64,000 nucleotides of DNA, taken from contig CM067370.1 of assembly GCA_034401795.1 (NCBI GenBank), forward strand, positions 99,394,164-99,458,163, written 5' to 3'. This document shows positions 6,314-63,445 of this stretch, piece after piece. The first letter of the stretch is position 1; each line of letters opens with the position of its first letter. The position numbers and the translations under genes are program-made. Under the pieces are notes generated by a model. The model did not search any database. It was not told the DNA's origin and saw nothing but the letters and a program-made list of their open reading frames with translations. This DNA is from Chaetoderma sp. LZ-2023a (Eukaryota > Mollusca > Caudofoveata > Chaetodermatida > Chaetodermatidae).

Positions 6314-6465
6314 CTTGTATCGTGTTCATATGGTTCTAACTAACAAGCTTGTGTTTTTGCATTGGAAACATATAGTTATTTATGAGCTGCACTGTAAGTA
6401 AAGACGATACGCCAGCGATCTATGAACATTCTGTCAGTTTAAATACATCGCCAAACGCTTATATA

Positions 6466-8122
6466 CACCTGTGCAAAAGTTAAGCACCACCCTATTTTTA
6501 CGCACATGCGAGGGTATATTCATGTGCTATGAAGAAAGCAATAGCATAAACATTTATGTACCCATCCATCTTAGTGCAAGAGGTAATAATGCAACTAGAG
6601 GAATGCTGATTATGATGGTGGGGAAACACTGTATGTTTTTGTTTGAACTTGAAAACGAGGCCTGAATATGGTTACGTTGACACAACTGACAACTATTGCC
6701 CTACAGTTGACACACATGGCTAGATTGTCATTAATGGTGTCTGAAAACGAAGTTTAACATCTGTGCACGAGTTTGAGACTGTCATTATTAATACCGGGTA
6801 TATCCACCTTGTGCCTGGATGACGGCCTGGACACGACGTCTCATGCTGGTCACCAACCGACTGATACGCCATTGCGGTATTCGTTGCCATTCAAGATGGA
6901 GTGCGTCTGTTAATTCCGGTAGGTTCTGCACAGGAGGATCCCTCCTTCTCACCATGTTTCCCAGAATGTCCCAGATATGCTCAATAGGGTTCATGTCAGG
7001 GCTCCTTGCTGGCCATGGTAGGGTTTCGATGGCATTCTGGCGGAGGTATTCATGCACAGCTCTAGCACGATGTGGTCGGGCGTTGTCATCCATGAATATA
7101 GGGTGGGTTCCAGGTGCATGATTTACAAAATGAGGGACCACAACTCAATCCAGTATGGAATCTTGATATCTTTGTCCATTTAGTGTCCCAGGTACAGTCA
7201 ACAGATCCAGCTTACAATCAAATGAGATGCACCCCCATATCATAACGGAACCTCCACCAAATGGAACTTCTTCTATGATGTTACGTTGGTCGTACGCCGT
7301 GCGTCTGGACCTCCATACACGAGTTCGACCATCTGTGGCATGAAGCAGGAACCGACTTTCATCGGACCAGTGTACCCGTCTCCATGATCTCATGTTCCAG
7401 TGTCTTCTTTCGTTGCACTACCTCAGACGCTCCTCTTTGTGGTGTGCAGTGAGGAGAGGACGTCTGACAGGTCTCCTAGCTTTCATGCCAGCAGCATACA
7501 GTCTCCTTTTGACGGTAGACATTGCCACTCTATTGCGCGTTTCCCATTGCTGGCTGAGCACTCTGCTTATGGTGAATGGAGATCTCCTAACAAGGCGTAC
7601 TAGGGCTCGATCATCACGGGCAGTAGTCTTCTTCGGTCTTCCAGATCTAGGCCTGTCCTTCACCTCGTTAGTTTGCCCATGTTTTGCAATCAAACGACTG
7701 ATTACAGTATGGTTAATGTTCAGCTGTCTGCCAATCTCTCTGCATGACATACCAGTGGTACGCATGCCTATGATTTGCCATTTCACACGATCACTTAACC
7801 TTCGTCTTGCCATAGCGGTTCACAATCAAGAGCTAATTCTCTCTGTACAAATAAACCACGGTCATGAACACAAAATTCCTAATCTTGTCGCCTAAATCTG
7901 TATGTAATGTTCTACACCTCAAACTGGACTTTTACATAACTGAACACGTGTGCTGTTTCCCGCCACGCACGGACATCAAGCGGCGTGAAGTCATGCATGC
8001 ATGTGCATTTCATACTTGGAATTATGTCAGCTAACGCGGGGACAAAAAGTATGGCAGCCTAGTTGTACCATCATGTTTCTACATTCTATTGTTTTTGCTG
8101 GTGCTTAACTTTTGCACAGGTG
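6466..8122 (-). mobile_element. Tc1-type DNA transposon, copy 1 (transposase interrupted)
   Basis: Terminal inverted repeats start CACCTGTGCAAAAGTTAAGC (about 24 bp) and are flanked by TA on both sides (6464-6465 and 8123-8124), the classic Tc1/mariner target. Length is 1657 bp, identical to the copy at 28977-30633, to which it is an almost exact reverse complement (roughly 1-2% different by eye, several differences at CpG sites). The transposase lies on the minus strand and carries two nonsense codons. Confidence 0.95.
6788..7813 (-). pseudogene. Tc1-type transposase, two nonsense mutations
   Basis: The frame is collinear with the intact 341-codon gene of copy 2, with the same length (1026 bp) and no frameshift. 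Codon 132 (Trp in copy 2) is TAG at 7418-7420, and codon 223 (Arg in copy 2) is TGA at 7145-7147, splitting it into 131-, 82- and 117-residue open pieces. The helix-turn-helix N-terminus, the HWSDESRF first-Asp motif, DDNARPH and SPDMNPIEH motifs are all still readable. A few missense differences from copy 2 (for example His18 to Arg). It probably depended on transposase from another copy after these mutations. Confidence 0.95.
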
Positions 8123-8129
8123 TATAGAT

Positions 8130-26348: not shown

Positions 26349-27894
26349 GTGCACAATGAGTACATGTGTACTGCAATACATATCAATATGTATTGGGCAT
26401 GTCAAACAAATAACTGGTTGAAGATAATCAGTGTGTCAATTTTGAAAACAACATTGCTTAATCATTTCAGCCACAGATTAACTGCCTGCCTGCTGAATTT
26501 CTGAAGATTACATTTTTCATGGGGCTTAACTTTGGATATGTTGAATATTTTGAAAACAATCTGACTGAAACTTAGCTAAGCCAACAACAAATTTCAGTCA
26601 CACTCATCAAAATATTGAACTGGACAGTTCTTGCCTATTGAAATTATTGTCTGGTGACTTACAGCAGTTTGACAGTAAATATTGCAATGAAAGAAGACAT
26701 TCTATTCAACATTTTAGAACTGATTTGACAGTATTTAGGCAACAAGGGCCTCCAGTCAAATTAGTTTCAAAGCATTCAAGGATTTACATCACTCATACAT
26801 GCATCCTGTAGATATGTCATTTTATCCGGATATCAATGAAGTCACATTTGTTGCTGTCAGAGAAAGCAATAACCTTTAACAACCAACATTTAACTATTTA
26901 ACCCTTTTACCGACAAATCCCTAGAAAAAGAATATTATTTATGATATAAAACCTATTCTGTTGAATATTTTGAAAATAATTTGACTGGAAGCTGTTGCAG
27001 CCCAAGCCAGCAACAGCTTCCCGTTAAATTATTTTCAAAATGTTCAAGTTTTCCAGTATGGTAGTGTTGAAAACGAGATATGGCCAATTCATTAGTGAAA
27101 GGGTCAAAGAAGAATTGACCTCAGATATCAATAAACTCAATCAATCGGTTTATAATGTTTACAGACATATTTATCCTGATCACTCAGCGATGTCTATGAA
27201 CATGTCTATGTAATTCTTTTCTTCCTCATGACTAGTAAAAAAACCCTTCAAGGCACTCACAAAGGAACATTGCTGAATATTTTAAATATAATTTGACTGA
27301 AAGTTGTCACTGACTAAATGAGCCAACTAATTATTTTCAAAATTTGAACAGAAAATTTTTCATATTGTAAAGAATAAAGATGTTGCACTTGATTCGAGCT
27401 CATCGCATAACAACGCACCTGCCAACTAGAAATTTCCACTCCATGATAAAATGTGTAGGACTGGCAGTATGATCAGTGAACGAAAAGAAGAAGAAGATAA
27501 AATGTGTATTGACCTTGTGTTTATTTGAGACAGCAGTCTGACGAATTAACTGTATGCCTGATGACTTTCTGTAGAATACCTTTCCCATGGGGCTAAATTC
27601 TGAATAGGCTGAATATTTTGAAAACAATTTGATTGAAAGTTGCTGGTGGAAAGCTACAAGCAAATTAACTGATAAATATTGCTACATGTACACGTGGATA
27701 GTCTTCAGTGAGGTCAGAATCAAATGACATATACTGGATTCACATACATGAATGATGTAAACTCTTGAATATCTTGATAATGATGTATTATAACATCTAG
27801 TATTTATCCATCAAATCTTTTGCAGTAGTTAATTCATTTGTAGACATGATTTGCCTATTGTTTTGTATAATATGTATCTATTTAATTAAGACGT

Positions 27895-28168
27895 TATTAG
27901 CTTAATTGGCGTCTACTGAATCCCTGATTCCAGGTCCCTTCCACTGGCACCCATTTATACTCCAACGAGGAGTGAAGGAAATTGCCTATGTTTCAACCGA
28001 TTGCTTGCCTTCCACCCAATCGGGATTTGAATCCCGCCCGCCTGATTACCAGTCGATTGCGTTACAGTTTCTAGTTGTTTGTTTGTATATCTTGTTTCTT
28101 TATATGATTGTACTTGTATTGCTGTGTCCTTAACGTTGGTTTTTTTGCAATAAACTATCTATCTATCA
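27895..28168 (+). repeat. Possible SINE-like retroposon with (CTAT)n tail
   Basis: The plus strand ends CAATAAACTATCTATCTATC, an AATAAA followed by a short tandem tail of the kind seen at the 3' ends of some SINEs/LINEs. Upstream is GGGATTTGAATCCCGCC, similar to a tRNA box B, and TTAGCTTAATTGGCG at the head, similar to a box A. The A-B spacing is too long for a simple tRNA head and no target-site duplication was found. Confidence 0.35.
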
Positions 28169-28372
28169 AGCTATCCAAGGTAATAACGGCAATAAACCAA
28201 TTCAACATAAAATGTGTATTGCGATACACTTTCTTAACAGCATGTGGGGATTCAAGTATATTGCTTAAACTGGCATATAGGTAAATGCTTGAAGAAAAAT
28301 GTCTGAACATGTTTAACTGTCTGGCTACTGCCAGCCACAAGACAATAATTTCAATGGGTAATATTTCAGGAC

Positions 28373-28479: not shown

Positions 28480-28976
28480 CATCAGGGAATATGTAGTGTG
28501 TAGAAATCCAGCATGCAGACAGCTAACAAACAAGCGAGCCATTGATGTGGCCTGTATCCGGGTCAATGCATAAATCTCAGTGTTCCAAATACAGGACAAC
28601 TACGTGTACACACAGCAGTAACGAGACCCTGTCAAATTAGTTTCAAAATCTTCAACAGAATAACCTTACATCTGAAAAAATGTAGCCAATAAACCTCGAG
28701 TCACAATTAAGTTTGAGACAACTGTGCCACTAAACTACATGTATATAATAAACTGGAAGGCCTCCCGAAATACGAACAGAATAATATTGCAGATTAATAT
28801 GATATTGTGGTCAATAGATGTTTTAAAACACTATGCGTAATAATTTCACTATATCGTGATCAGAAAATTCATTCAACATTATATTTATTGGCGAGACTTA
28901 GGCGATTTAGTTTGGGGCGACTTGACAAATCTTACATTATGATAATTAGATGATGACTCAGTGAAGTAAATATATA
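28480..28976. other. No recognisable feature
   Basis: AT-rich sequence with only an H2 arm near 28629-28662. Confidence 0.45.
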
Positions 28977-30633
28977 CACCTGTGCAAAAGTTAAGCACCA
29001 GCAAAAACAATAGAACGTAGAAACATGATGGTACAACTAGGCTGCCATACTTTTTGTCCCCGCGTTAGCTGACATAATTCCAAGTACGAAATGCACATGC
29101 ATGCATGACTTCACGCCGCTTGATGTCCGTGCGTGGCGGGAAACAGCACACGTGTTCAGTTATGTAAAAGTCCAGTTTGAGGTGTAGAACATTACATACA
29201 GATTTAGGCGACAAGATTAGGAATTTTGTGTTCATGACCGTGGTTTATTTGTACAGAGAGAATTAGCTCTTGATTGTGAACCGCTATGGCAAGACGAAGG
29301 TTAAGTGATCGTGTGAAATGGCAAATCATAGGCATGCATACCACTGGTATGTCATGCAGAGAGATTGGCAGACAGCTGAACATTAACCATACTGTAATCA
29401 GTCGTTTGATTGCAAAACATGGGCAAACTAACGAGGTGAAGGACAGGCCTAGATCTGGAAGACCGAAGAAGACTACTGCCCGTGATGATCGAGCCCTAGT
29501 ACACCTTGTTAGGAGATCTCCATTCACCAACAGCAGAGTGCTCAGCCAGCAATGGGAAACGCGCAATAGAGTGTCAATGTCTACCGTCAAAAGGAGACTG
29601 TATGCTGCTGGCATGAAAGCTAGGAGACCTGTCAGACATCCTCTCATCACTGCACACCACAAAGAGGAGCGTCTGAGGTGGTGCAACGAAAGAAGACACT
29701 GGAACATGAGATCCTGGAGACGGGTACACTGGTCCGATGAAAGTCGGTTCCTGCTTCATGCCACAGATGGTCGAACTCGTGTATGGAGGTCCAGACGCAC
29801 GGCGTACGACCAACGTAACATCATGGAAGAAGTTCCATTTGGTGGAGGTTCCGTTATGATATGGGGGTGCATCTCATTTGATTGTAAGCTGGATCTGTTG
29901 ACTGTACCTGGAACACTAAATGGACAAAGATATCAAGATTCCATACTGGATAGAGTTGTGGTCCCTCATTTTGTAAATCATGCACCTGGAACCCACCCTA
30001 TATTCATGGATGACAACGCCCGACCACATCGTGCTAGAGCTGTGCATGAATACCTCCGCCAGAATGCCATCGAAACCCTACCATGGCCAGCAAGGAGCCC
30101 TGACATGAACCCTATTGAGCATATCTGGGACATTCTGGGAAACATGGTGAGAAGGAGGGATCCTCCTGTGCAGAACCTACAGGAATTAACAGACGCACTC
30201 CATCTTGAATGGCAACGAATACCACAATGGCGTATCAGTCGGTTGGTGACCAGCATGAGACGTCGTGTCCAGGCCGTCATCCAGGCACAAGGTGGATATA
30301 CCCGGTATTAATAATGACAGTCTCAAACTCGTGCACAGATGTTAAACTTCGTTTTCAGACACCATTAATGACAATCTAGCCACGTGTGTCAACTGTAGGG
30401 CAATAGTTGTCAGTTGTGTCAACGTAACCATATTCAGGCCTCGTTTTCAAGTTCAAACAAAAACATACAGTGTTTCCCCACCATCATAATCAGCATTCCT
30501 CTAGTTGCATTATTACCTCTTGCACTAAGATGGATGGGTACATAAATGTTTATGCTATTGCTTTCTTCATAGCACATGAATATACCCTCGCATGTGCGTA
30601 AAAATAGGGTGGTGCTTAACTTTTGCACAGGTG
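28977..30633 (+). mobile_element. Tc1-type DNA transposon, copy 2 (apparently intact)
   Basis: Ends CACCTGTGCAAAAGTTAAGC and its complement, flanked by TA (28975-28976, 30634-30635). 1657 bp, with an uninterrupted transposase. It lies in opposite orientation to the copy at 6466-8122, so the two form a 22.5-kb-separated inverted pair of nearly identical 1.66-kb sequences. The extremely low divergence suggests recent activity in this lineage. Confidence 0.96.
29286..30311 (+). CDS. Tc1-type transposase, DD34E
   Basis: 341 residues, the usual length for Tc1 transposases. Residues 1-60 form a paired-like helix-turn-helix (GMSCREIGRQLNINHTVISR), followed by a GRPR-like linker (RPRSGRPKK, 54-62) and a second DNA-binding helical domain to about 125. 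The catalytic core is DDE: Asp151 in HWSDESRF, Asp243 in DDNARPH and Glu278 in PDMNPIEH, with exactly 34 residues between the last two. GGGSVMIWG (186-194) is the glycine-rich box. The enzyme cuts at the terminal inverted repeats and inserts at TA. The start ATG at 29286 is the first in frame and matches the family N-terminus. Antisense frames across it are not genes. Confidence 0.96.
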   Translation: MARRRLSDRVKWQIIGMHTTGMSCREIGRQLNINHTVISRLIAKHGQTNEVKDRPRSGRPKKTTARDDRALVHLVRRSPFTNSRVLSQQWETRNRVSMSTVKRRLYAAGMKARRPVRHPLITAHHKEERLRWCNERRHWNMRSWRRVHWSDESRFLLHATDGRTRVWRSRRTAYDQRNIMEEVPFGGGSVMIWGCISFDCKLDLLTVPGTLNGQRYQDSILDRVVVPHFVNHAPGTHPIFMDDNARPHRARAVHEYLRQNAIETLPWPARSPDMNPIEHIWDILGNMVRRRDPPVQNLQELTDALHLEWQRIPQWRISRLVTSMRRRVQAVIQAQGGYTRY

Positions 30634-31496
30634 TATATAACGTGGATCGTGATTGGGTAGTTTTATCGGGGTTAATCATAAGTGTCGGTTTTAGTAGTGT
30701 CAATGGATGCCGGTTTTTAACAAGCTTGATCACCTTTCTCCATCATACAGTAGATACGGCCGTTTCGGATCACTATCTTAATCATCAATCAAATTCTTTA
30801 GAGCCACGTTTTGATTTAATATTTTGTTATGTTTTTCAATAACTTCAGTTTATTGATGACAAAGAAACATAAAAATGATCTCAATCGTGTCAGATTTCTA
30901 GCATTTAATTAATAATAAATCCCCCCCAACAGACCACCCTTTAGTGGGTTGGTCTGTATTAGCCTTACAATAGACTGGCACCAGTCTGTACACACTCCTT
31001 GGTGACGCCTGTCACTAAGCACGCTCGCACATGCGCAGTAGGTCCCAAATGTGAAAACTGATTCACTTTTCTAAATTTAAGTGCCATATATCCAGAATAG
31101 ATTCTCAAATCAATACCCAGCGGGGTGGCTGAGGCCGGGTCGTAGTGATTGAACGGTAAGTATGTTTTTATAGTGGTTAATAAAACTAGACCAACCCACT
31201 AAAGGGGGGTCTGTTGGGAGTTGTTATTACACCACAAAAACATCCATTACCGTTCAATCACTACTTGCTAAACCCATAGATTTGGTCAGTGTCCCACTAC
31301 GAAACTTTGGTCGGAGGAGATTTGAGAATCCATAAGCATGGATAAAAATCAAACAAAACATAATCAAATGTTAATAACATAACATAATGGTGCATCTTAA
31401 TCAATCACACAGTGATTATCAAACAAGGATTTCTTTAAACTTAAAGAAATAAATAAAAACCAAAGAACTCACACCATTACACGCAGACGCACGGTC

Positions 31497-32968
31497 CTAA
31501 CGAAAATGGTGGGATGTGCTTGGTAAATGGTCTTCATCCTTTTTAGTTAAAATCATAAAGTTCCTAAAAAAGGAAGCCGCTGTGCTCTGGTCTTTTAAAT
31601 AAAAAGTAGTAAAAGTAGACTCAGATTTCCATCCTGCAACTTGCATAACCTCGTCTACAGAAGAGCCAGCAAAAAGGGCAAAAGAGGTAGCCATCCCTCT
31701 AATGACATGGGCTTTAATGTGAATGGTCTCACAAATCCATCTGGGAATAGATGCCCTAGAGACTGGACTGGCTACCCCCTCCTCATACGGAACCCAGAAA
31801 AGGGACAGATCGGATCTCTAAAAATCAGAACGACGCTTATAAACTTTTGGAGCTCTGACAGGACACCAAAATCTGTCAGCCGGAGAAAGGAGGTTAAAGA
31901 TTGTAAAATAATCGGCTTAACTGGATAACGGATTGATTGAGTCTTTGATAAAAAATCCCTTCAAGGATATAAGACCAGACCGTCCCCAGAATCGATAAAC
32001 CTATCCTTTTCAGCGGAGAAAAAGTGGATTTCGGATCGCAACTAGAAAAACGGTCTTAAAAGTTAAAAGATTCAAGCTAATCGTAGAGATAGGTTCGAAA
32101 TGATGACCTTCCTAAAAACCTGAAGAACCAGAGCCAAGTTCCAGGAAGGCAAAGGTTTAACACCTGGAGGATGAATATTACCTAAACCTCTGATCAAAAG
32201 ATTAAGAACCATAGTATCTTCAACTTCAGCGTTCAACAAACAAGGAAGAGAAGATGCAAAAGAAAATCTATATCCTCTTACAGTGTTAGCAGACAGATGT
32301 AAAGAGTTGAACAGATAAGATAAAGAGTCTAACACCTGGGAAATAGAAACAGAATCAGGCACAAGACCTTGATCTGAACACCATTCTCCAAAAATCTTAA
32401 GCCAACCCTTGTAAACTCTTCGAGTCGACTCCCTCCTGGCAGAATCGAAGATTTCCTGAGCTCTTGTAGAAACTTTATTCTCAAGGATCGAGCACTCGAT
32501 ATACTCCAAACGCACAGACTTAAGATTCCTGGGTTTGGATGATGGTAAGTACTAGAAGATCGAGAAGGTCTACAAACCAGATCCTTATTGGCCAAAAGGG
32601 AGCTATTAACAAGATCTTGCAGATCTGGTCCCTGACTTTCTTCAGAACCAAAAGAAATCAGGATTGTGGGAGGGAACGCATAAGCGAAGATTCCTGACCA
32701 GGACTGAGACAGGGTCCACAGCCCACGCCTGAGACAATTGGTCCGCAAGAAAACTCAGACAGCCTGGGACATGAGTGGACACTAGGAAAATTTGATTCAT
32801 GCGACACCACATGAGGAGGTTCCACACTTCCAAGTACAGGAGAGATGACTTTGTGGCCCCCTGCCTGTTGACATAAGACTCCTGGCGAATTGTCCGATCG
32901 AATCGAGAACTAGAGACCCTTAACATGACTGTCCGAAAAGGGAGACATGAAAGATAAAATCTGTGCAA
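31497..32968 (-). pseudogene. DIRS A1 recombinase and RNase H remnants
   Basis: Readable parts include a recombinase N-terminal region (TRRVYKGWLKIFGEWCSDQG, SANTVRGYRFS) at 32072-32515, the recombinase C-terminal region (MATSFALFAGSSVDEVMQVA) at 31497-31694 and an RNase H-like stretch (VNRQGATKSSLLYLEVWNLL) at 32642-32968. They match the parallel parts of element A2. Several interruptions; a fossil. Confidence 0.7.
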
Positions 32969-34065: not shown

Positions 34066-34949
34066 AAGGTCGACTAACTCCCAAGATTGCACTCACTTCT
34101 TCTACACTGAAGTATTAGACTGCAATCACAGAAAATCATCAGCCTGAACGTGACACAGGATCCTATAATGATTGCAAAACTGTGTCCCATATTTAAATCA
34201 ACGACATAGGAAAACAAGCCAGCTTCAAGACTTGGCTTAGGAATACTGATCAATTTGATATCCTAAACCATTCAATATTTATGCCAAGAGGCAGAAAACT
34301 TAAAAGATTTTTTATATATTTATTGATTCTAATATTTATAGTCTTAGAATCAATAATTTCATCTTTGTAATAACAAATGACATTGTGTTAGCAATCCCAA
34401 TAAAAAGAAAGATTGAACACTGATACTTGATATTAACGGTCTGGATACTGAATTTTGCAGACGACATATTACAACTGTAATATCTCTGGACCTGCAAAAT
34501 ATTTTGAAAACATTTTGACCGAAAATTGTTGGTGGCTGCTTAGATAGGATAAAGATTATCGAGTGTAGAGGCCTATCTAGACATCCATGGTAGCTACTAC
34601 ACACGATAATCTGTATACCATGACACACACACGGAAATCTCGGTAATATCTTAAGATCGCCATCGTCTTAAAAAGATAGTGCTTTTAGGATAAAGATTGT
34701 CTATGTCTATGTATAATAGTTGCGCGTTAGTGAAAATAATAGACACTAATAATTCCGACTGTCTTTTAATAAAGAGACATAAACGCCAGTAAATATTATT
34801 AGTTCCACCAACAGACGACTAATGCTGGTATAAGACTGGTATAAGAGGGATCTCATATTTCCATATCATCAATTTTTGAAGAAAAGTTCCGAAATCAAGG
34901 ATATAGAAATATGAGATTCCCAATTATTCCATGCTTCCAGCCAGGTGAA

Positions 34950-35012
34950 AAGATTTCATCTTGAGAACGGCTCTCCAAGTGTGATACCAGCGATCAAAAA
35001 GAAGAAGAAAGA
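34950..35012 (+). mobile_element. Tiny GAA-tailed retroposon insert, copy 1
   Basis: A 63-bp insert beginning AAGATTTCATCTTGAGAACG, continuing GCTCTCCAAGTGTGATACC and ending in an AAGAAGAAGAAAGA tail. It is flanked by a perfect 11-bp direct repeat, AGCCAGGTGAA (34939-34949 and 35013-35023), as expected of target-primed insertion. A 58-bp part matches 62721-62778 with two differences. Confidence 0.75.
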
Positions 35013-36179
35013 AGCCAGGTGAATGCATTCCTAGGCCTATTTGACTTTTATTAAATCGGGCCGACATGACTCTATCCTAGGCCGAGCTGACTAATTTAAG
35101 TAGGCCGACTCGACTGGAATTCACTTCACCAACAACCCTCAGCCAAAACGCCCCCAAAAGACCCAGCAAATCCTGAGCTTTGATGCCCACCGAAAGATGC
35201 CCACCAAAAACCACCAACCGGAGGCCTGCAGCAACCCAGTCAAAATAGAGCAAAAAATTACGCTAGAAAAGGGAAAACAACCAAAATTCTGGAAAAAAAT
35301 TAATGAAAACAAAGCTAACTCACCGACACTATGTCAACGCAGAAGAAGAATTCAGCTTATATTCCTTCTTCCTGCCCCCTTATCCGCTTGATTATCTTTT
35401 CTAAGCGACTATTGTTCTTGTAGACATTAATCTTGTAGTCATACTGATCCCTATGAAACCTTTACTGAATCTAATTCTTTTCAGCGACTGGCAAAATTAG
35501 ACTACGATTTACGCAAGAATCAGGGTTTTTCCCTCTACAGATTCACTCCCTTTGGTTAAAATAAATATGTCAACCTGCCGACATAAGAGGTAAAAGGAGC
35601 GTGAAGAAAGGCTGAATGGCCCGAAGACAACTGGCCATCTAAAGTTGGATTTAAGTAGAAATCGTATCTCGAGATAATGCGTAGAATACACTGACTTATC
35701 GGCTGATGATATGTGCATATAAAATAATCTGCAACAAAAAACCCAGTCAGAAGAGTGTTTAATTACGTTGAAAATTGTCACTGATAAACGAATAAATGTC
35801 TGAATAGACTACAATTCCAAGAGAGACTACAAGACTGGCAATGACTCGGTATGAATATTTTCAGCCATTAAACATTTCCAATATTAAACAAATACGGAAA
35901 TAAGACTAAATCTTAGGCAAGAAGATGACAAGATTCTAGGAAAGCGAACATGTAAACCGGACGTGAAGAACAAAACTGGAACCCCAGGAAGTTCTCTATC
36001 ACCTGAAATCCAAAACAGAAAGACAGACACGGAAGATAATCCTAGAACACCAAAAAGATCCATGAAAACCGGAAATGACCTTATCCCCGGCTGTACGAAA
36101 TCCGGATGTGGAAAAATAGGAAACGGAAATGTGTAAACCGGAAGTAGACTACCGGAAACTGATCAAGATCCTACAACCC

Positions 36180-36535: not shown

Positions 36536-37345
36536 GGAGGTGGACGGAAAAGCCAGAAAATCATGAGACACCGGATGTTCAGCCAAGCCAGACAATCACA
36601 GTGCTCATATCCGGATGCCCGGTAAAACCAGAAGACAAACCGGAATGCAAACCCGCTTGCCCGGACATGCCAGGAGCAGAGACGGGAGCAGAGGAGATGG
36701 AAGATCTTAAAACATTTCTGGCAATAAGAATTAAGGGAAAGATGAACTTATGCATGAGATGAAGGATCGGAAGCCTCCGCCACCGATGCCATCGCATGAT
36801 ATAATAGGCATGGTTTCTCAAACCTCGAAAACGGGAGTACTGACACGAAAACTGGTAACTCAAAACTAGAGTTACAAAAACCCTCTAAAACACCATGACA
36901 TGAAAGTTAAACATAACATAGGCAAGATAGATTTCATGGTAGGCATGTTTTCTTGAGTCAGAGAATTAAATGTAGCTGAACTTTTCAGTGCAAAGCTATA
37001 AACTTTTATCCATATGATAGCAGGCGAACTGATCTGCTAGCAGAATATTTGAAAAGTGAATCAGTTTTCACATTTGGGACCTACTGCGCATGTGCGAGCG
37101 TGCTTAGTGACAGGCGCCACCAAGGAGTGTGTACAGACTGGTGCCAGTCTATTGTAAGGCTAATGCAGGGGGTCCCTCTATCACAAGCCTGGTTGAGGGT
37201 CTACATGGTGATGGAATTGGCATTATGGAGTATGTAAGCGAGCATAAAATTTTTATTCTGATAGCTAAATGCAGATATTTGATTTAGCAAGTAGTGATTG
37301 AACGTAATGGATGTTTTTGTGGTGTAATAACAACCTCTGTTGCGA

Positions 37346-48110: not shown

Positions 48111-48677
48111 TATTGACTTCACCTGGCTTGTAATGTGAAGCTGGCTCCATTTTCTTTCAACTTGGTCACAACGAACTTTCTGTTCATATTCACGTAAATT
48201 ATAAACATTTTACATAAGTACTACGACTTATTCAACAAAGACTGCTTGTACTGTGGTATTCATGAAAAATCAAATGTGGATGTAGCTCCACAAGATTATG
48301 GAATGAATAGGATTTGTTGAGATAAAAGTTAGGTGTTTCCTGTAATACAGAAAATTAATTAATGACGGCTTGGACTCGGTCGCATGCATAGTAGCATAAG
48401 TGTGCATGCTCACAGACTCGTTTATATGTTCTCTATAGGAATAGAGGAACCGGTTCCCTAGAGAAATGACTGCTTTAGAGTTAAAGAGATACTATCAAGA
48501 CTACCCATTGGAGGGATGTATCTCTGCTAACCTTGTTACAAGGGAACCCACACCATGGGAATGAATAGGTTAACATTTTCTGAGATATCTAAGTCAGGTG
48601 ACTTATAGCAAACAGTGAATTGAGTGGCTTAGTATTTTTGTTGTGTTACAAAACTCCAATTGCACATTAATTAACCA

Positions 48678-55439: not shown

Positions 55440-56319
55440 TTAAATCCCCCCCACAGACCTCTTGCGGGTTGGTCTGTTGTTTATTAATCACTATAAAAGC
55501 ATACTTACCGTTCACTCACTACTTGCTAAATCAATTATCTGCATTTAGCTACCAGAATAAGATTGTTATGCTTGCATACACTCCTCCCCATGCCTATTCA
55601 TATAAATATGGACCCTCAACCAGGCTACTGGTTAGGTCCATCTCCAGTATATTAACTGATATAGACTGGCACCAGTCTATACTCACTCCATAGTGACGCC
55701 TGTAACTAAGCTCGCTTGCGCATGCGCACTGGAGCCCAAATAGGAAACAGATTCACTTTTCTGAATTTAAGTGCCAAATATTATAGGCAAATTCTCAAAT
55801 CAATTCCACACGGGGTGGCTGAGGCCAGGTCGTAGTGATTGAATGGTAAGTATGTTTTTATAGTGGTTAATAAAACAACGGACCAACCCACAAGGGGGGG
55901 GGGGGGTCTGTGGGGGGTTGCTATTACACCACAAAAACATCCATTACCATTCAATCACTACTTGCTAAACCCATAGATTTGGTCAGTGCCCCAATAAAAA
56001 CATTAGGTGGGAGGCGATTTGAGAATTAACAAACAAGGATAAAAATCAAACCAATATTATCCAAATGTTAATAACATAACATAATAGTGCATTTAAATCA
56101 ATCACACCGTGATTATCAAATAAGGAAAACTTGAACTTAAAGAGATAAATAAAAACCAAAATAAACTCACCATTTCTTACAGACGCACAGTCTTAGCGAA
56201 AATGGCGAGATGTGCTTGGTAAATGGTCTTCAGCTATTTTGGTTAAAATCGTAATATTACGAAAGGAGGCTGCTGCACTCTGATCTTTCAGATAAAAGGT
56301 TGTAAGAGGATTCAGATTT

Positions 56320-58859
56320 TCATCCTGCAACCTGCATGACTTCATCTAAATACGAACCGGCAAAAAGTGCAAAAGAGGAAGCCATTCCTCTAACATCGTG
56401 AGCTTTAATATGGGAGAGATTAATTTGTTCCGGAGAAGTAATCTCATAACAAAGCTTAATTGTCTCCCAAATCCATCTGGTTTTCGTATTCTTTGAGACC
56501 GGCTTAGCTAACTCTTCCGCATAAGAAAACCATAAAAGGGACGGATCAAATCTTTTGAAATCAGTTTGCTGTTTGTACATTCTTAATGCCCTAACAGGAT
56601 ACCAGAGTTTGTCGGAAGGCGAAAAAGACGATAATGATTTTAAAATGATCGGACTAGCAGGAAACTGGTAAGACTGAGTTTTAGATTAAAAAATCCCTTC
56701 TGGGATATAAAACTAAACCGTCTCCTGAAACTATAAATGTCTCCCTTTCAGCAGAAAAAGCATGAATTCTGAACGCCTTCTAGCAGAGGCCGTTAATACT
56801 AGTAGAGGAAAGAGGTTCAAAATGACGGCCTGCCAGCACTTGAAGAACCAAAGCCAAGTTCCATGAAGGTAAAGGCTTAGCTATCGGAGGACGAATATTG
56901 TCTAGACCCCTAAATAAAAACTATTAAAGGTCTTAGTGTCCTTGACATCGGCATACAGAAGGCAAGGAAGAGAAGATGCCAGAGAAAATCTATATCCCCT
57001 AACCGTATTAGCTGATAAATGTAAGGAATCAAAGAGATATGTTAAAAAGTCTAATACTTGGGGAATAGAAACAGAATCGGGCAAGAGACCTTGGTCTGAA
57101 CACCATTCTCCAAAAAATTTAAGTCGACACTTGTAAACTCTGCGGGTCGCCTCTCTTCTGGAAGAATCAATAATTACTGGAGATCTTGAAGAAACTTTAT
57201 TCTCGTAGACTTTAGTTTCGATATTCTCCAAACACACAGACTGAAGATTTCTAGGTTTGGATGAAGACAAAGACCTCTTACTTGAGACAGAAGATCCTGG
57301 GAGAATGGAAGAAGACGAGGGAAGTCTACCAGAAGATCTAGAAGGTCTACAAACCAAATCCTCTTTGGCCAAAAAGGAGCTATTAAAAGAATCTCGCAGA
57401 TTTGTTCTTTGACCTTCTTCAACACTAACGGAATCAAAATCGTTGGAGGGAATGCATAGACGAACATTCCTGTCCAGGACTGAGACAGGGCATCCACCGC
57501 CAGGGCTTGACTGTCCGGAAAAGGAGACATGTAAGAGGAGATCTGAGCATTCAGAGATGTCGCAAACAGATCTACCAGAGGACGATCCATAAGACTGAAA
57601 ATTGCTTTGACAACCGACCTCTTTAACTGCCACTCTGTGTGGCCGAATTAGCTGGGACGTGACAGTTGGTAAGCAAGAAAATCCAGACTGCCTGGGACAT
57701 GAGAAGACACTAGAAGAATCTGATTCTTGCGACACCATAAGAGAAGGTTCCACACTTCTAGACAAAGGAGGGATGACCTTGTACCCCCCTGCCTGTTGAT
57801 ATAAGAGACCACTGTCGAATTGTCCGACCGAATCGAGACTTTGAGACCTATCACAAGATCTGACCATGAAAGGAGCCTTCTTGACAGCACACAATTCCAG
57901 AATGTTGATATGAGCTGTCGACTCCTCCATGGACCAAAGACCGGAAACCGACAGGGAGTCCCAGACCGCTCCCCATCCTTCCTGAAAAGCGTCTGTGAAG
58001 ATAATCGCCTGAGGGGAGTACTTTACCAGTGGAACACCCATCAGAAGCAGAGAACGATCTTTCCAAAAATCTAGAAGAGGAATCAAGTGTTCTCTGATGG
58101 GAATCTGATAGTAAATAGAGTGAACCGACTGCTTCCAAAGGGACATTAAATACATTTCATCAGCGCCGCCCATGGAATAACATTCTCTATGCTGACCATC
58201 AAACCTATCACTCTTAGCAGAAATCTTACTCAGACCATGGAAGAAGAAGACAGGATTTCCATTCCCACTGATAAAGCCTCTATTCTTGGATCTGAGGGGA
58301 AGACTAGACCCTGGGCCAGATCGAAAGAAATGCCTAGAACGATCTTTCCAAAAATCTAGAAGAGGAATCAAGTGTTCTCTGATGGGAATCTGATAGTAAA
58401 TAGAGTGAACCGACTGCTTCCAAAGGGACATTAAATACATTTCATCAGCGCCGCCCATGGAATAACATTCTCTAGGCTGACCATCAAACCTATCACTCTT
58501 AGCAGAAATCTTACTCAAACCATGGAAGAAGAAGACAGGATTTCCATTCCCACTGATAAAGCCTCTATTCTTGGATCTGAGGGGAAGACTAGACCCTGGG
58601 CCAGATCGAAAGAAATGCCTAGATGCGTAAAGATTTGAGAGGGACCTAGGCTTGATTTCTTTAGATTTAAAATCCACCCTACATTGCATGCCAGACTGCA
58701 AACCGCTGGAAGAATTCCTAAGAGAATTGAGGAAGACTGCTTTACTAACCAATCATCTATATAAACGTGTAGATGGATAGAACAACGGTGTAAAATTCCT
58801 GCCACGGCTGAGACTAGGCGAGTAAAAAGAAAAAGAGCCGTGGTCAGGCCAAAACTCAT
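56320..58859 (-). pseudogene. DIRS A2 reverse transcriptase, RNase H and recombinase remnants
   Basis: The longest open stretch (56902-58752) spans parts of the reverse transcriptase domain through to the recombinase N-terminus (TRRVYKCRLKFFGEWCSDQG, SANTVRGYRFSLASSLPCLL). The recombinase C-terminal core (KAHDVRGMASSFALFAGS) is at 56320-56580. HLHVYIDDWLVKQ gives the polymerase active-site box. These parts identify the family and orientation. Several interruptions; not expected to function. Confidence 0.75.
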
Positions 58860-59431
58860 GGCGCGAAACTGCCAAACTCAATCTTTGTAAGCAAATCTCA
58901 GGAATTTTCTGAAGGAAAGGTGAATGAGAACATGAAAGGCGTCATTTTGGTCGACGGAAAACGACCACATACCCTGATCTATACTGGAAATGATCTTGGA
59001 GATGGTCTCCATCTTGACTTGGGAGTAAGAATCATGAGATTTAATCATGTCATACCCCTTTGTTAAATTAAAATTAATGCAGATTTGAATGTTTCAGAGT
59101 GAATAGAGATTTTACTAAGATTTAATGACAGGCTAGGAATTCGTACCCTAAGCTGAATGCTCTCATGTATGTATAAGACTATGGACCGACGGATCCAAAA
59201 ACCCAAGAAGAGGAAGAGAAGAGATAAAATAAGAGAAAGGGTTGGACCTACCCGGGCGGAGGCCACACCTTCACTCTCTTAGCTTGAAAAACCTCTGTGT
59301 GAAGACCTACCACTAGACCTTGAACTAGGACTGTAAAAATAAGCCTGGCCCCCTCTCACTCTAAGAGCAGGGGGTTGACTAACCGTAGAAAAATCTTTAA
59401 CGTGAAAGGAAAGAACTTCCCAGGAAGATCC

Positions 59432-62349: not shown

Positions 62350-63445
62350 AAAAAACCCAACAGACATCCCCTTTAGTGGGTTGTTCTGTAGTTTTATTAA
62401 CCACTATAAAACATACTTACCGTTCAATCACTACTTGCTAAATCAACTACTCTGCATTTAGCCACCAGAATAAGATTTTTATGCTTGCTAACAAACCCCC
62501 ATATGCCTATTCCATCTCTATATATACCCTCAACCAGGATACTGGTAGGGTACACCCCCAGCATATGGCCTGATAGAGACTGACACCAGTCTGTACTCAC
62601 TCCTTGGTGACACCTCTCACAAAGCATGCTCGTGCATGCGCATAGGAGCCGAAATAGGAAACCGATTCACTTTTCTAAATTTAAGTGCCAAATATTACAA
62701 ATAGAACTGAAGAAAACCACAGATTTCATCTTGAGAACGGCTCTCCAAGTGTGATACCAACGATCGAAAAGAAGAAGACAAACAGATTCTCAAATCATTC
62801 CCACGCGGGGTGGTTGAGACCGGGTCGTAGTGATTGAACGCTAAGCATGTTTCATAGTGGTTAATAAAACTACAAACAAACCCACTAAAGGGGGGGGGTG
62901 TCTGTTGGGGGGGGGGGGGTGTTATTACACCACAAAAACATCTATACCATTCAATCACTACTTGATAAACCCGTAGATTTGGTCTGTGCCCCACTTAAAA
63001 ACCTTTGGTGGGTCGAGATTTGAGAATCGTTAAACAAGGATAAAAATTAAACAATTCATATTCAAATGTTAATAAATTAACATAATAGAGCATCCATAAC
63101 AAATCAAAGTGATTATCAAACAAGGAAAATTGTCAACTCAATGAAATAAACAAAACAAGAGAATATTCTCACCATATCTGACAGACATACAGACTAACGA
63201 AATTGGTGAGATGTGCTTGGTAAATGGTCCTTGTCTTGTTAAAAATGTTATGTTTCTAAAAAAGGAGGCTGCTGGGCTTTGATCCTTTAAATAGAAACAG
63301 GTAAAAGTGGATTCAGATTTCCAACCTGTGACGCATGACGTCGTCCAATGATGAGACAGCGAAGAGCTAAGGAGGAAGCCATACCACGAAGGCCGAGAGC
63401 CTTGACATGGGCTAAATTGATCTCAATTTTAATTTTCCATACCAG
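62350..63445 (-). mobile_element. DIRS-like element A3, terminal part only
   Basis: It has the terminal repeat of family A (GACTGACACCAGTCTGTACT, GCGGGGTGGTTGAGACCGGG, GTAGTGATTGAACG) followed by a remnant of the recombinase C-terminus (63287-63469, NLAHVKALGLRGMASSLA). It has the same orientation as A1, A2 and B. It is cut off at about 63440 where a CATGACTTTCC-type repeat begins. Broken fossil. Confidence 0.7.
62705..62777 (+). mobile_element. Tiny GAA-tailed retroposon insert, copy 2
   Basis: A 73-bp insert within the terminal repeat of DIRS A3, absent at the equivalent place in A1 and A2. It starts AACTGAAGAAAACCACAGAT, continues TTCATCTTGAGAACGGCTCT and ends GAAAAGAAGAAG. It is flanked by ACAAATAG (62697-62704) and ACAAACAG (62778-62785), a probable 8-bp duplication with one change. 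Its 5' end extends 14 bp further than copy 1, as expected of variable 5' truncation. Confidence 0.7.

Follow-up and report, generated by a model that had tools for sequence, protein, structure and literature searches.

The window, i.e., the whole analyzed stretch of 64,000 nucleotides, contains a 63-bp insert that starts at position 34950, ends in a GAA-rich tail (3' terminus AAAAAGAAGAAGAAAGA) and is bracketed by a perfect 11-bp direct repeat. The repeated sequence, AGCCAGGTGAA, occurs twice on the plus strand of the window and once on the minus strand (48118-48128). An earlier note on this DNA had described the insert with its repeat and tail, and had stated that a 58-bp core matches positions 62721-62778 with two differences. 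Both statements were confirmed: the core (34951-35008) is identical to the second place at 56 of 58 positions, with a local E value of 3e-23 in a BLAST search within the window. A 20-base piece of the core, searched in the window with up to three mismatches, matched solely at these two places, and 0 matches were expected from 100 shuffles. The flanks of the two places do not match each other, despite the nearly identical core. The two inserts are called copies 1 and 2, a third, more weakly related insert is called copy 3, and the features of all three are summarized in Table 1.

Table 1. Coordinates of the three inserts, their target-site duplications and the paralogous empty sites.
Feature	Position	Strand	Remarks
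Copy 1, 5' target-site duplication AGCCAGGTGAA	34939..34949	+	perfect 11-bp direct repeat
Copy 1, insert	34950..35012	+	63 bp; core 34951-35008; 3' end is the GAA-rich tail
Copy 1, 3' target-site duplication	35013..35023	+	perfect 11-bp direct repeat
Copy 2, 5' target-site duplication ACAAATAGA	62697..62705	+	8/9 match to 62778-62786; borders consistent with the empty paralogs
Copy 2, insert	62706..62777	+	72 bp; 5' end 15 bp beyond the core common with copy 1
Copy 2, 3' target-site duplication ACAAACAGA	62778..62786	+	8/9 match to the 5' repeat
Paralogous empty site for copy 2	55732..55850	+	matches the joined flanks over 119 bases without gaps, 86.6%
Second paralogous empty site for copy 2	31055..31160	+	matches the joined flanks over 106 bases without gaps, 87.7%
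Copy 3, 5' target-site duplication GATAAAATGTGTA	27445..27457	+	perfect 13-bp direct repeat
Copy 3, insert	27458..27495	+	38 bp; weak similarity of the body to copies 1 and 2; GAA tail related
Copy 3, 3' target-site duplication	27496..27508	+	perfect 13-bp direct repeat

Copy 2 is located in a stretch (62356-63411) that is one of several paralogous repeats; the others are found at 55458-56414, at 30921-31697 and, in part, at 37048-37335. Two of the aligned paralogs lack 81 bp that are present at copy 2, which is the net insertion. The 72-bp insert and one 9-bp repeat were deleted by script, and the joined flanks were matched within the window. Both empty sites matched without gaps, and, thus, the insert of copy 2 has the borders given in Table 1. 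Copy 2 is an insertion as well, as evidenced by the two paralogs that lack it. Its duplication contains one mismatch in 9 bp and was missed by the scan for exact repeats. Another 9-bp pair, which likewise differs at one base, is present at 62709 and 62771, within the insert and its tail. The sequence ACAGATT, which had been picked by eye as the duplication, was dropped because the empty sites put the border farther upstream. Searches with joined flanks revealed no empty paralogous site in the window for copy 1 or for copy 3.

In the BLAST search with the core, the place of copy 3 ranked directly behind copy 2 (E 0.013), and it was found before flanking repeats were considered. The insert reads GGACTGGCAGTATGATCAGTGAACGAAAAGAAGAAGAA, and a GAA-type stretch covers positions 27485-27497. 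The tail is related to those of copies 1 and 2, with 81% identity over 32 bases (E 0.004-0.009) and 94% over 17 bases (E 0.015). The similarity of the body is weak: equally good scores were obtained with 135 and 150 of 20,000 shuffles, and also at 20 and 17 of 1381 window sites anchored at A-rich stretches, the copies themselves being included among these sites. Therefore, copy 3 may belong to another family with a similar tail. A profile built from the three copies found only the same three copies above the threshold, a result that is circular. The earlier note had been right about copy 1 and the core match, but the extent of copy 2, which at 72 bp reaches beyond the core, had to be revised, and the third insert had been overlooked. 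As a separate, unexplained observation, the 15-base target of copy 3, ATAAAATGTGTATTG (27497-27511), recurs exactly at 28207-28221, about 700 bp downstream.

A list of GAA-type stretches on both strands (15 + 8 = 23 sites) was compiled, and for each an exact direct repeat was sought up to 700 bp upstream. Bordering repeats of at least 11 bp were present at three of the 23 sites, namely copy 1 (11 bp), copy 3 (13 bp) and 58525-58535 (30 bp). The last of these was rejected as a further insert, because it is accounted for by a 285-bp tandem duplication (58051-58623, 99% matches). This duplication lies within a minus-strand ORF of 616 amino acids, which had no Pfam match at E 0.001. When the distance was restricted to 100 bp, two sites remained, i.e., copy 1, which was known beforehand, and copy 3. 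In first-order Markov flanks, an exact repeat of at least 11 bp within 100 bp upstream was found in 7 of 20,000 cases and one of at least 13 bp in none, and the chance control for 700 bp yielded 2 of 400 for at least 11 bp. Real positions of the window outside tandem arrays are the fairer control. There, repeats of at least 11 bp were present at 106 of 20,078 positions and repeats of at least 13 bp at 44. Accordingly, about 0.12 (at least 11 bp) and about 0.05 (at least 13 bp) sites were expected among the 22 tail sites besides copy 1, and one was found. Direct repeats of this kind are common in the window: of the 650 entries of the direct-repeat list, 527 fell within the tandem arrays and 15 were of low complexity, which left 108 for the count, and 18 repeats of at least 11 bp outside arrays enclose at most 100 bp. 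The flanking repeats alone are, thus, weaker evidence than they look, and the case rests on the empty sites and the tail.

These numbers bear on the reading that unrelated GAA-rich stretches happen to be flanked by fortuitous direct repeats, or that the inserts derive from a DNA transposon or are filler from DNA repair. GAA stretches and repeats of the required length are indeed frequent enough in the window to give this reading a basis, but the near-identity of copies 1 and 2 over the core and the two empty sites for copy 2 speak against it. Terminal inverted repeats are lacking; of the 12 end bases, no more than 2 or 3 pair. Taken together, this reading is highly improbable.

All three inserts can be translated in one frame up to a stop codon. 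The peptide is LKKTTDFILRTALQV for copy 2, DFILRTALQV for copy 1 and GLAV for copy 3, and the distance from the first base of the stop codon to AAAAGAAG, which lies downstream, is 15, 15 and 13 nt, respectively. If this is the end of an ORF, 10-12 nt of 3' UTR would lie between the stop and the tail. Two of the four codons preceding the stop differ between copies 2 and 3 at the third base only. In copies 1 and 2, an alternative frame is likewise open, and, therefore, the coding reading is weak; judged from the sequence, the inserts might represent the end of a LINE ORF, a stop codon and a very short 3' UTR. The putative ORF end may resemble CR1/L2-type C-termini. A scan of the window for ORF ends like F..TGL gave eight matches, of which one has a GAA tail behind it, namely copy 2. 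Copy 1 is not among them, because the pattern demands 12 stop-free residues ahead.

Longer copies of the core were not detected in the window, and Pfam searches of 38 chosen ORFs and six 3-kb read-throughs revealed no LINE reverse transcriptase; we, thus, infer the LINE parent from the inserts. An unusually stable 3' stem-loop would be expected for a stringent-type LINE tail; the predicted folds of copies 1 and 2, which would be truncated ends, are not more stable than those of shuffled sequences (z +0.82 and +0.99, respectively). The Pfam matches in this set were a Tc1-type transposase, an RVT_1 fragment and a weak integrase-type domain, the latter two below their cut-offs. The RVT_1 fragment (58518-58877, minus strand; E 9.3e-7, 29.2 bits at a cut-off of 29.6) was rejected as the parent, because it sits amid DIRS-like repeats. 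These are the paralogous repeats in one of which copy 2 is located (30921-31697, 37048-37335, 55458-56414 and 62356-63411). They are partly inverted and share their region with the RVT_1 fragment and a weak Phage_int_SAM_4 match below the cut-off (32075-32551, minus strand), and they are perhaps DIRS- or Ngaro-like elements. The Tc1/mariner-type elements form an inverted pair (6459-8129 and 28970-30640) with 98.9% identity over 1671 bases, and a 341-aa ORF in the second copy matches HTH_Tnp_Tc3_2 and DDE_3. The Tc1-type transposase, together with the style of the repeats, suggests an animal host.

Exact patterns of 43 and 22 bases gave 0 matches in a collection of genome contigs, and patterns of 26, 19, 24 and 24 bases gave 0, 1, 0 and 0 matches in viral contigs; both collections are unlikely to include animal repeats. 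The single viral match (L001, 19 bases, 105-kb contig) was rejected as a chance match, as few further bases agree and the GAA tail is absent in 100 bases inspected by eye. A literature search found GAGAACGGCTCTCCAAG in no paper, and GAAGAAGAA together with SINE and non-LTR in none.

Three properties are characteristic of the inserts. Each of the three is flanked by a target-site duplication, which is perfect for copies 1 and 3 and has one mismatch for copy 2. The 5' ends and the flanks differ while the 3' end is alike; this combination of a common 3' end, a simple tail and variable 5' ends is clear for copies 1 and 2, while copy 3 is included by virtue of its tail. By eye, the GAA period runs into the first one or two bases of each 3' repeat. 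Together with the unoccupied homologous sites in two paralogs of copy 2, these properties support target-primed reverse transcription, which the earlier note had proposed. Between its two options, a 5'-truncated LINE and an independent miniature retroposon, the former is favored, given that the copies have different 5' ends and that their sequence is readable as the end of an ORF with a stop. Very probably, the inserts are extremely 5'-truncated 3' ends of one LINE family or of related subfamilies, the RNA of which would end in a short 3' UTR and (GAA)n.

The proposed enzymatic steps follow established LINE biology. The endonuclease of a LINE would nick the target DNA, and the nicked strand would prime reverse transcription on the GAA tail. 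The template would consist of the last 15 codons of the ORF, the TGA stop, the 10-12-nt 3' UTR and the tail. Synthesis would halt after some 38-72 nt, resulting in severe 5' truncation, and cleavage of the second strand 9-13 bp away would generate the target-site duplication.

The same mechanism could also have acted on a different source RNA, i.e., the inserts could be 5'-truncated copies of an ordinary SINE with a LINE-derived 3' part. According to PMC3747384, 3' ends are common to SINEs and their partner LINEs. The stretch at 28022-28036, GGGATTTGAATCCCG, resembles a tRNA T-arm, with a match also obtained in 5 of 100 shuffles; it is perhaps a piece of a minus-strand SINE and would hint at the presence of SINEs in this region. 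However, the window contains no longer copy of the insert body and no tRNA gene detectable by ARAGORN (bacterial code setting), and the sequence of the insert is compatible with the end of an ORF. Neither a pol III promoter nor a small-RNA head was seen in the copies. Any truncated copy would lack its head anyway, and, therefore, the SINE reading keeps a place among the explanations, albeit as an unlikely one.

Alternatively, an independent miniature retroposon with a source RNA of about 75 nt and a LINE-like GAA tail could have been mobilized in trans by the enzyme of a LINE; copies 1 and 3 would then be shortened versions. It would fit this reading that all three copies are shorter than 75 bp and that, apart from the tandem duplication described above, none of the 23 GAA-tail sites marks a longer insert (repeat of at least 11 bp, up to 700 bp upstream). 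Yet copies 1 and 2 match the pol III promoter boxes A and B only loosely, with 2 and 4 mismatches at best, and Rfam yielded no family at threshold in the window and none at E 5 around copy 1. A common 5' end, moreover, cannot show from just three copies. A miniature retroposon is, thus, quite unlikely; truncation is the likelier reading, whether the source was a LINE or a SINE carrying a LINE tail.

If the inserts are LINE ends of very short length with clean duplications, such ends would give rise to small insertions and to seeds for GAA microsatellites, both of which repeat annotation can miss. Low processivity of the reverse transcriptase and end joining by the host are set against each other as the cause of LINE truncation in PMC4760211, and a family with almost only such copies would bear on this question and on the truncation length of LINEs. 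Whether nearly all copies are shorter than about 75 bp, owing to a short source RNA or to a reverse transcriptase or host end joining that stops synthesis almost at once, is doubtful. If true, the copies would be dense (three in 64 kb here) and would be missed by repeat annotation that starts at 100 bp.

The comparison with known systems draws on the papers cited below, with PMC4176376 and PMC10294476 as further context. Human L1 (PMC2912911) shares target-primed insertion, duplications and truncation with the inserts, but the tail of the inserts is GAA-rich instead of poly(A), and the motif TT/AAAA is present at none of the three junctions. Truncated LINE copies usually have a length of 100-1000 bp (PMC3747384), and the inserts of 38-72 bp are, thus, below the usual range. 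RTE LINEs of Lepidoptera have duplications of 6-12 bp and 3' UTRs that are short and frequently contain di- or trinucleotide repeats, and their truncated copies, which consist only of the RT end and the UTR, have been mistaken for SINEs (PMC2887409). The inserts are similar with respect to the duplications, the simple-repeat tail and the putative short 3' UTR, whereas the duplication of copy 3 is longer (13 bp). The Tn-TA signature of the RTE element Bov-B (PMC13295347) is not consistent across the three insert sites: by eye, T/A is present only at copy 2, and TTT 10-12 nt upstream only at copy 3. The severe truncation of the inserts also differs from RTE in Anolis, where 53% of the insertions are full-length, compared to less than 10% for CR1 and less than 7% for L2 (PMC5389967). 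Truncated LINE insertions of Anolis retain the 3' end, and the authors explained an excess of CR1 polymorphism by many insertions shorter than 50 bp, which their BLAST search may have missed (PMC5389967). The inserts resemble CR1 and L2 of Anolis in their 3' anchoring and their 5' truncation (PMC5389967). CR1 insertions of less than 50 bp have, thus, already been inferred in that lizard genus, and, therefore, the kind of insertion described here is already known.
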